This document shows positions 13,438-14,223 of a DNA stretch of 64,000 bases, one piece after another; position 1 is the first letter of the stretch, and every line of letters begins with the position of its first letter. This DNA is from Aerosticca soli. Lineage in GTDB: Bacteria > Pseudomonadota > Gammaproteobacteria > Xanthomonadales > Rhodanobacteraceae. Position numbers and translations under genes: made by a program. A model generated the notes under the pieces. That model saw nothing but the letters and a program-made list of their open reading frames with translations. It did not search any database and was not told the origin of the DNA. The stretch is taken from the NCBI RefSeq assembly GCF_003967035.1, contig NZ_AP018560.1:643001-707000 (forward strand), given 5' to 3'.

Positions 13438-13505
13438 TGAGTTCTTCGCTGATCACCACAGTGGAGAAAGTGATTGGGAAACAGAGACTTAGCGCTCTAG
13501 TGCAT

Positions 13506-13523
13506 GACTCGTTTCCCGCTCCA
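13506..13523 (+). other. ICE attachment site (element end)
   Basis: GACTCGTTTCCCGCTCCA matches the last 18 bases of the tRNA-Gly gene at 13686-13703 (GTCTCGTTTCCCGCTCCA) at 17 of 18 positions. ICEclc-family integrases recombine at exactly this 18-bp tRNA-Gly 3' end. ICE-type genes lie to the left and ordinary chromosome to the right, so this is the integrase-distal boundary of the element. Confidence 0.82.
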
Positions 13524-13533
13524 GATGCACGTT

Positions 13534-13627: not shown

Positions 13628-13703
<76 letters not shown>

Positions 13704-13730
13704 GGTTTGCAAGCATGGCCCAAAGGGCAT

Positions 13731-13747
13731 CCCCGCGAGGGGTTTTT
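13731..13747 (+). terminator. Terminator after tRNA-Gly
   Basis: CCCC-GCGA-GGGG followed by TTTTT; a short GNRA-capped stem with a U run, between tRNA-Gly and tRNA-Cys. Confidence 0.55.
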
Positions 13748-13777
13748 CGTTTCATGGCGGGGCTGCCCGCCGGCAAT

Positions 13778-13851
13778 GGCCAGGTGGCAGAGTGGTCATG
13801 CAGCGGCCTGCAAAGCCGTGTACGCCGGTTCGATTCCGACCCTGGCCTCCA
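13778..13851 (+). tRNA. tRNA-Cys(GCA)
   Basis: A 74-nt cloverleaf with acceptor stem GGCCAGG/CCTGGCC, an anticodon arm containing CTGCAAA (anticodon GCA), T loop GTTCGATTC, discriminator T and an encoded CCA end. Confidence 0.94.
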
Positions 13852-13922: not shown

Positions 13923-14223
13923 GCCCGAGTGGTGGAATCGGTAGACACAAGGGACTTGAAGCAGTTTTGAGCCCCGCACCGGGAAACCGGGCGGGTGAAG
14001 CCCGTCAAAGTCGGCGAACGCCCTGGACCATCCGCGCCAACGCCGAGCCAAGCCCGAGTGCATCGGGAAGGTGTAGAGAGCAGACGGCGGGCACCTAAGG
14101 CCGGCAAGGCTAGGGTGAAGGCGTGCTCCAGACCACGAACGGCGCGGCCGGCGGCGAAAGCCGAAGTGGTACGAAAATCCCTCGCCGCAAGGCGTGCCGG
14201 TTCGACTCCGGCCTCGGGCACCA
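13923..14223 (+). tRNA. tRNA-Leu(UAA), split by a group I intron
   Basis: The exons are 13923-13957 and 14174-14223. Joined, they give an 85-nt leucine tRNA: acceptor stem GCCCGAG/CTCGGGC, anticodon arm AGGGA-CTTAAAA-TCCCT with anticodon TAA, long variable arm CGCCGCAAGGCG, T arm GCCGG-TTCGACT-CCGGC and an encoded ACCA. Without removing 13958-14173 the anticodon loop cannot form. The insertion lies directly after U34, the position used by cyanobacterial and plastid tRNA-Leu(UAA) introns. UUA codons probably depend on this tRNA. Confidence 0.95.
13958..14173 (+). ncRNA. Group I (IC3-type) self-splicing intron, 216 nt
   Basis: Exon CUU pairs with internal guide GAG at 13969-13971, giving the U-G pair at the splice site; GAAG/UUUU extends P1. 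P2 is 13973-13995 with a GAAA loop. P3 is GCCCGUC (14000-14006) with 14083-14092. P4 is UCGGCG (14011-14016)/CGCCGA (14041-14046). P6 is CCCGA (14053-14057)/UCGGG (14063-14067). P7 is GAGCA (14078-14082)/UGCUC (14124-14128). P9 is CCAC/GUGG with CGGC-GAAA-GCCG (14152-14163). The final G is 14173. Core words (GCCGAGCCAAGC, GAAGGTGTAGAGA, CACCTAAGGC) match the Azoarcus tRNA-Ile intron as I remember it, while P7 differs by paired changes. No reading frame lies inside. Confidence 0.93.

Follow-up and report, generated by a model that had tools for sequence, protein, structure and literature searches.

Group I introns of subgroup IC3 are small introns in the anticodon loops of tRNA genes; both P2 and P9 end in GAAA loops, and P8 is receptor-like. 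The Azoarcus tRNA-Ile intron is of this type, with GAAA in both L2 and L9, and it self-splices in vitro, as does the tRNA intron of Anabaena; the group I introns of tRNA-Arg(CCU) are of the alphaproteobacterial kind. In 2002 Vepritskiy et al. reportedly found the tRNA-Leu(UAA) gene of a gammaproteobacterium, Pseudomonas sp. SMCC D0715, to be interrupted by a group I intron, which is said to comprise P1–P10 and, within P8, an 11-nt receptor motif. The accessible part of one source gives tRNA group I introns for cyanobacteria and for "few" alpha- and betaproteobacteria (PMC4033280); cyanobacterial and plastid tRNA-Leu(UAA) introns are treated there and in the accessible part of PMC4476775, and the tRNA-Ile2 introns of Acidovorax and Burkholderia in that of PMC8450103. 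In the available portion of a further paper, A.s. (Anabaena) is named among the introns shown to self-splice (PMC2729099).

The locus described here lies in the window, the whole stretch of 64,000 nucleotides that was analysed. A preliminary description had proposed a 216-nt insert exactly after U34 of tRNA-Leu(UAA), the removal of which restores a perfect tRNA. An intron-aware ARAGORN run over positions 13923–14223, one of the checks proposed there, recovered tRNA-Leu(UAA) with a 216-nt intron at the identical coordinates, 13958–14173, inserted between U34 and A35, and the exons after intron removal form a complete tRNA with encoded CCA. Plain ARAGORN and the Rfam tRNA model detected no tRNA gene at 13923–14223, and in its vicinity plain ARAGORN reports tRNA-Gly, tRNA-Cys and tRNA-Met only. 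Uninterrupted tRNA-Leu(UAA) genes are present in eleven relatives from the same family; the joined window exons (predicted junction ...GGGACUU joined to AAAAUCCC) are 83–92% identical to them, and all 11 alignments are gap-free at the junction. The same tRNA-Gly and tRNA-Cys precede 8 of these 11 intron-free loci, and the Gly-Cys-Leu order also occurs in intron-bearing relatives. The features of the locus are as follows, R2 being a covariance model described below.

13628–13851, + strand: tRNA-Gly(GCC) and tRNA-Cys(GCA), immediately upstream (ARAGORN)
13923–13957, + strand: 5' exon of tRNA-Leu(UAA), last base U34 (intron-aware ARAGORN)
13958–14173, + strand: group I intron, assigned to IC3 type, 216 nt, last base G (ARAGORN, R2 model, helix check)
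13955–13971, + strand: P1, exon CUU with guide GAG (U-G at the splice site), and GAA/UUU (helix check)
13973–13995, + strand: P2 hairpin, L2 = GAAA (helix check)
14000–14092, + strand: P3, 14000–14006 with 14083–14084 and 14088–14092, enclosing P4, P5 and P6 (covariation, helix check)
14078–14128, + strand: P7, GAGCA at 14078–14082 with UGCUC at 14124–14128, the guanosine-site helix, enclosing P8 (covariation, helix check)
14094–14114, + strand: P8 with CCUAAG...UAGGG (helix check)
14153–14162, + strand: P9, L9 = GAAA (helix check)
14174–14223, + strand: 3' exon of tRNA-Leu(UAA), CCA encoded (ARAGORN; alignment to intron-free genes)

Further upstream, the sRNA family sX8 has a strong match (95.6 bits) at 13444–13525 of the window, and promoter-like sites lie directly upstream of this match and of the tRNA-Gly gene. 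Between 8247 and 11047, a few kb before the tRNA-Gly(GCC) gene, reading frames recognised by eye as ParA-like and ParB-like perhaps mark an integrated mobile element.

The helices of the intron were placed by hand and then verified base by base. Every placed pair is standard and none fails, which bears out the full group I core with the P1 U-G pair, the GAAA loops of P2 and P9 and the terminal G, as first described. The splice-site wobble in P1 is U13957-G13969; P3 reads GCCCG-UC/GA-CGG-CGGGC, with CGG as a bulge, and P4 is UCGGCG/CGCCGA. P5, P6, P6a and a P9.1-like hairpin are also present, P10 is formed by UUUU with exon AAAA, and the intron ends with G14173. The pseudoknotted P3–P7 core with P4–P6 and P8, the U-G pair at the 5' splice site and the terminal guanosine are those of a group I intron, and the insertion site, the P2 and P9 GAAA loops and the receptor-like P8 point to the IC3 type. 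We take CCUAAG...UAGGG in P8 to resemble the 11-nt tetraloop receptor, a motif that might explain why, among 15 introns, no more than 4 have a standard second outer pair in P8.

Comparison of 17 related introns, including that of the window, revealed standard pairs in 95.4% of pair cells, against 87.6% after shuffling and 26–44% when the partner strand was slid by 1–3 columns. Both sides have changed in 13 of 38 pairs, located in P3, P4, P5, P6, P6a and P7, the last accounting for three; the P7 variants among these introns are GAGCA/UGCUC, GACUA/UAGUC and GACUC/GAGUC.

Searches with covariance models gave divergent results. The Rfam model RF00028 (Intron_gpI) found no match in the window at the gathering score or at E ≤ 1, and none anywhere in the host genome, a result that could suggest an unrelated inserted sequence or chance folding. 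Against this, a model designated R2, built from 24 tRNA introns and excluding the window and all training rows of the window-family model R1, matches 14000–14173 with 138.3 bits and E 3.1e-40, although its rows were aligned to R1, whose training included the window, so that the alignment is not fully independent. The next-best R2 matches have E values of 2.8 in the window and 7.5 in the genome. The preliminary description had named the lack of a group I model hit as grounds for abandoning its reading; this is the case for RF00028 and untrue for R2. RF00028 was also run at E ≤ 0.5 on ten loci, the window's (L044) and nine others, and reached five: L245, with three introns all above the cut-off, and, below the cut-off, L257, L059, L240 and L288. 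It missed L044, L047, L055, L078 and L112, that is, the window and 4 of the 9 sibling loci. Since the sibling L059, a tRNA-Leu(UAA) intron from the window's bacterial family, is recognised (48.9 bits at a cut-off of 50, E 1.5e-9) and four siblings are also missed, we read the RF00028 result as a limit of sensitivity. Introns with the same core also sit at U34 or C34 of tRNA-Leu in 114 of the 118 loci from named records among the matches listed. The probability of an unrelated insert or of chance folding is practically nil, and the R2 match and the siblings refute it as far as sequence can. ARAGORN, the helix check and R2 together support a group I intron in tRNA-Leu(UAA), and by these features the insert is best classified as IC3.

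Whether aided by a protein or not, such an intron would very probably be removed by the guanosine reaction. The guide GAG of the precursor would pair with exon CUU, placing U34 opposite G; a free guanosine held at P7 would attack after U34, and the freed U34 would attack after the terminal G14173, helped by P10 (UUUU/AAAA), which would align the exons. Their joining would restore CUUAAAA, a normal anticodon loop. Docking of the P2 and P9 GAAA loops would lock the fold, by contacts that we infer from the loop sequences. A sub-case of this explanation, not wholly exclusive of it, is that the intron is unable to splice alone and needs a host protein such as a tyrosyl-tRNA-synthetase-like cofactor or an RNA chaperone. 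Misfolding could be caused by the high G+C content (68%) and by the minimum-energy fold of the 302 nt, which differs from the group I fold; the thermodynamic fold lies 1.5 sd below those of shuffled sequences, 11 of 100 of which fold equally well. However, this intron has the core and the peripheral elements known from compact introns that self-splice, and the related Azoarcus and Anabaena introns act unaided in vitro. We consider dependence on a protein unlikely and unaided self-splicing of the window intron likely.

The host genome consists of one contig of 2.87 Mb with 44 tRNA hits, and all these loci were rerun through ARAGORN. A second intact tRNA-Leu(UAA), which would have made the interrupted gene dispensable, was looked for and rejected: none is present among the 44 loci, where the other leucine tRNAs are CAA, UAG, CAG and GAG, although some stretches of the genome, perhaps rRNA operons, may be masked, since tRNA-Ala(UGC) and tRNA-Ile(GAU) did not appear among the 44 hits either. 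With no other tRNA-Leu(UAA) gene identified, this one can be used only after splicing. We also probed 22 genomes with the exact pattern GGACTYAAAATCC, which would miss variant loops, and counted the 20 with a Leu intron, leaving out G221 (no Leu intron known) and G077 (partial match). With this pattern, an intact UAA loop (GGACTTAAAATCC) was found in none of the 15 genomes with a UAA intron, and an intact CAA loop (GGACTCAAAATCC) in none of the 7 genomes with a CAA intron; neither loop was intact in G004 and G098, which have both introns. The CAA loop is intact in 10 of 13 UAA-only genomes, and the UAA loop in all 5 CAA-only genomes.

The demand for this tRNA appears to be small. No UUA was found among the 310 leucine codons of six window reading frames judged by eye to be genes, and at such low usage slow splicing would cost little. 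The proposal that reading of UUA in this host would require self-splicing holds, with the qualification that this codon seems almost unused. This rarity could also fit an intron that has decayed and no longer splices, in a tRNA gene that the host can spare, and one related copy, at L127, looks decayed. In the window, however, the placed helices are all intact and covary, and the exons make a perfect tRNA with encoded CCA, for which reasons we reject decay; the lack of an intact UAA loop in the 15 probed UAA-intron genomes also speaks against it. We therefore regard a decayed intron as very improbable and retain a functional group I intron as the preferred reading.

Related introns are widely distributed. 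A full-length match to the tRNA with its intron was obtained in 13 of 117 genomes of the family, including the window's, and a diverged match in two more (G035 and G064), the latter genome having a 484-nt tRNA-Leu(UAA) intron with large peripheral insertions (L060/L087). The tRNA-intron genes of family genomes are identical to genes from named Frateuria, Dyella, Dokdonella and "Lysobacteraceae bacterium" records, and genomes of the same order match Stenotrophomonas and Pseudofulvimonas likewise. The host had been taken to be a gammaproteobacterium, and the identities with Frateuria and Dyella support this, pointing to the order Lysobacterales. An exact 18-base core pattern occurs in at least 118 stretches of named bacterial records; 114 of the 118 listed hold an intron-bearing tRNA-Leu, corresponding to 115 genes (81 UAA and 34 CAA, one locus having both). 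Of these listed genes, 100 come from beta- or gammaproteobacterial records, one from an alphaproteobacterial record, one from a metagenome bin labelled Mycobacterium, and 13 from records with no class. The remaining four listed stretches are also tRNA-Leu; three are cut by the end of the locus, and L127, which has a mismatched anticodon stem, is perhaps decaying. At L058 and L226 (G077) and at L242, no intron-bearing tRNA holding the core was found. With model R1, matches were obtained in 48 of 299 genomes from the order, in 68 of 369 from the class and in 41 of 398 from the phylum, in overlapping samples where the order and class counts include partial matches (model positions 9–93) and the hosts are not all tRNA-Leu. 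On sequence evidence, the intron family is common in beta- and gammaproteobacteria. The proteobacterial cases cited in the preliminary description were confined to tRNA-Ile and tRNA-Arg, and the rarity that this implied does not stand.

A phylogenetic tree was constructed from 169 cores, with the splice-site region left out and a few non-Leu introns (e.g., tRNA-Arg) included; support is lacking for 95 of its 165 inner branches. Host order requires 24 changes over the 81 named rows (29–34 when shuffled) and host class 16 (18–30 when shuffled), and with counts so near the shuffled ones the intron follows taxonomy weakly. The nearest rows to the window intron on this tree are from Pseudomonas, Ectothiorhodospira and Variovorax; on a tree of 220 cores they are L046, from its own family, followed by Stutzerimonas, a predicted viral contig and Achromobacter.

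Members of the family also interrupt a second leucine tRNA, tRNA-Leu(CAA), where they are inserted after C34. The guide GAG is kept in all 42 unique tRNA-Leu(CAA) introns, resulting in C-G at the splice site; U-G is found in 114 of 116 unique UAA introns, and in the other two the GAG lies just beyond the scanned range. The C-G introns comprise L055, L056, L057, L075, L076 and 37 further unique ones. Counts for P1 and J4/5 are based on 185 of 236 intron calls (Leu UAA or CAA), the other 51, many of them spurious, being left out, while counts of the terminal G (142/142 UAA and 43/43 CAA) are uninformative, since the search pattern required that G. On the 169-core tree the UAA/CAA label changes only 3 times among 160 rows, against a shuffled mean of 38 for the CAA group, and movement between the two sites would therefore have been rare.

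To our knowledge, U-G at the 5' splice site is nearly universal among group I introns, with rare natural exceptions, and it is the adenosines of J4/5 that read this wobble. J4/5 is AA:AA in 105 of 114 parsed UAA introns versus 27 of 42 CAA introns (Fisher p 7e-5, kinship ignored). On the tree these deviations require 9 changes among the 116 UAA rows and 6 among the 42 CAA rows, and the coupling of a relaxed J4/5 to a C-G splice site is therefore suggestive only. The role of the U-G pair in splice-site choice is treated in the accessible part of PMC8793689, and no published tRNA-Leu(CAA) introns were found in the open-access literature searched. The family offers a natural test of 5' splice-site choice by group I introns without the U-G wobble.

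Some copies appear to travel with mobile elements. The betaproteobacterial isolate Eoetvoesiella caeni (L140) has a 319-nt tRNA-intron gene that is found, identical in sequence, in two Lysobacterales metagenome bins and in G072, a genome of the window's family that is seemingly one of those two bins. The likeness extends beyond the gene, with 99.6–99.9% identity over 2.0–5.9 kb, and starts some 195 nt ahead of the tRNA; identity to this region is 87–89% in Hydrogenophaga, Variovorax and another bin. The conjugation genes trbI, trbG, trbL and trbJ follow the tRNA directly, and an asparagine synthase gene precedes it. Given this near-identity across classes and the trb genes, it seems that at loci of this kind the entire tRNA gene, intron included, is carried from class to class by a conjugative element. 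The bins could be due to misbinning, an explanation that fits the isolates less well. Intron-bearing tRNA-Leu(UAA) genes adjacent to trb genes were observed at L140 (1778–7673), L053, L199, L200, L093, L111 and L148. Conjugation is thus a possible route for tRNA introns across bacterial classes.

Viruses are a second group of carriers. Two core patterns revealed at least 129 loci on viral contigs (L306–L434, all predicted viruses), and 89 of the 129 listed yield an intron-bearing tRNA call holding the core, while no such tRNA was found at the other 40. The calls are taken as given by ARAGORN; Leu(UAA) accounts for 46 of the 89 listed, and another 14, labelled "Tyr", resemble Leu(UAA) in shifted register. 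Named phages with related introns are Gordonia phage Daredevil, Agrobacterium phage Atu_ph07 and the uncultured huge phages LR756511 and LR756501 (phage loci L304, L305, L435 and L436). Among the phage loci as a whole, some have HNH genes inside; one such gene lies in the tRNA-Leu intron of LR756511. According to a 2014 review, all phage introns then observed were in protein-coding genes (PMC3984707), a statement against which the phage tRNA introns found here go. The word "intron" is absent from the main text of the huge-phage paper PMC7162821, and no phage tRNA intron is mentioned in the accessible parts of PMC7886860, PMC6293099, PMC8541194 and PMC1464144.

Three introns, all above the Rfam cut-off, were detected on one predicted viral contig (L245, 5401–7261). 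In Pelagibacter phage HTVC120P (L437), two reading frames for capsid protein are separated by a stretch with the same core, an arrangement that suggests an intron in the capsid gene. Predicted viral contigs L238, L239, L241, L244 and L246 have a host-like intron-bearing tRNA-Leu(UAA), in four cases within about 1.5 kb of the contig end, and are probably prophages integrated by that tRNA. A recent phage origin of the window copy is unsupported, viral and cellular rows switching only 7 times in the 220-core tree.

Matches to the window gene were found in 1285 of 72,556 plasmid records. Three resistance plasmids (CP041648.1, CP094253.1 and NZ_CP023816.1; L301 2995–3291, L302 and L303 2995–3292), the three examined among these matches, contain an intron-bearing tRNA, labelled "Stop" in shifted register by ARAGORN, that in our reading would be Leu(UAA) with a group I intron of about 220 nt. 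Close to it are a predicted aac(3)-IId gene and IS26, and in two of the three plasmids an annotated AAA ATPase gene intervenes. The nearest relatives of the plasmid copy, 86–87% identical, come from another class of the phylum, presumably Alphaproteobacteria, and may mark the place where the resistance module was picked up. No homologue of aac(3) or the AAA ATPase (E below 0.4) was found within 18 kb around the copy in G838 (86%) or 16 kb around that in G1034 (83%).

Taking these data together, we lean towards the view that the window intron is one of a mobile family that Rfam detects poorly and plain tRNA finders overlook, and that this family has moved to a second leucine tRNA and would splice there at C34-G with a relaxed J4/5; conjugative elements and phage tRNA genes could be its vehicles.

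A third related intron lies in a tRNA with anticodon CAU (L077 856–1177 and L078 890–1208), probably tRNA-Ile2, in the relatives G098 and G004, which have both Leu introns. At the loci L231–L233, with fuller but weak matches, and L235–L237, with half matches covering model positions 9–93 only, GGGGACTCAT or GAGGACTCAT precedes the insert, and these are perhaps a different tRNA-Ile(CAU) intron. The tRNA-Arg(CCU) introns L283, L285, L290–L292, L297 and L300, found by R1, come from the same phylum and another class.

The window intron itself is one more tRNA intron of known type, in a place where plain tools show no tRNA-Leu(UAA), while tRNA group I introns as a whole look far commoner in Proteobacteria than stated in the accessible part of PMC4033280. 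Among the described systems, the tRNA-Arg(CCU) introns have the same core as the window intron and are inserted instead after the CCU anticodon. The Azoarcus tRNA-Ile intron shares the core words and the GAAA loops of L2 and L9, but occupies another tRNA and site and differs in P7, P5 and P8. The cyanobacterial and plastid tRNA-Leu(UAA) introns occupy the same tRNA and have the same subgroup and site, whereas P7 of the window intron is GAGCA/UGCUC. The intron of Pseudomonas sp. SMCC D0715, as reportedly described, agrees with that of the window in tRNA and bacterial class and differs from it in host group and presumably in sequence.
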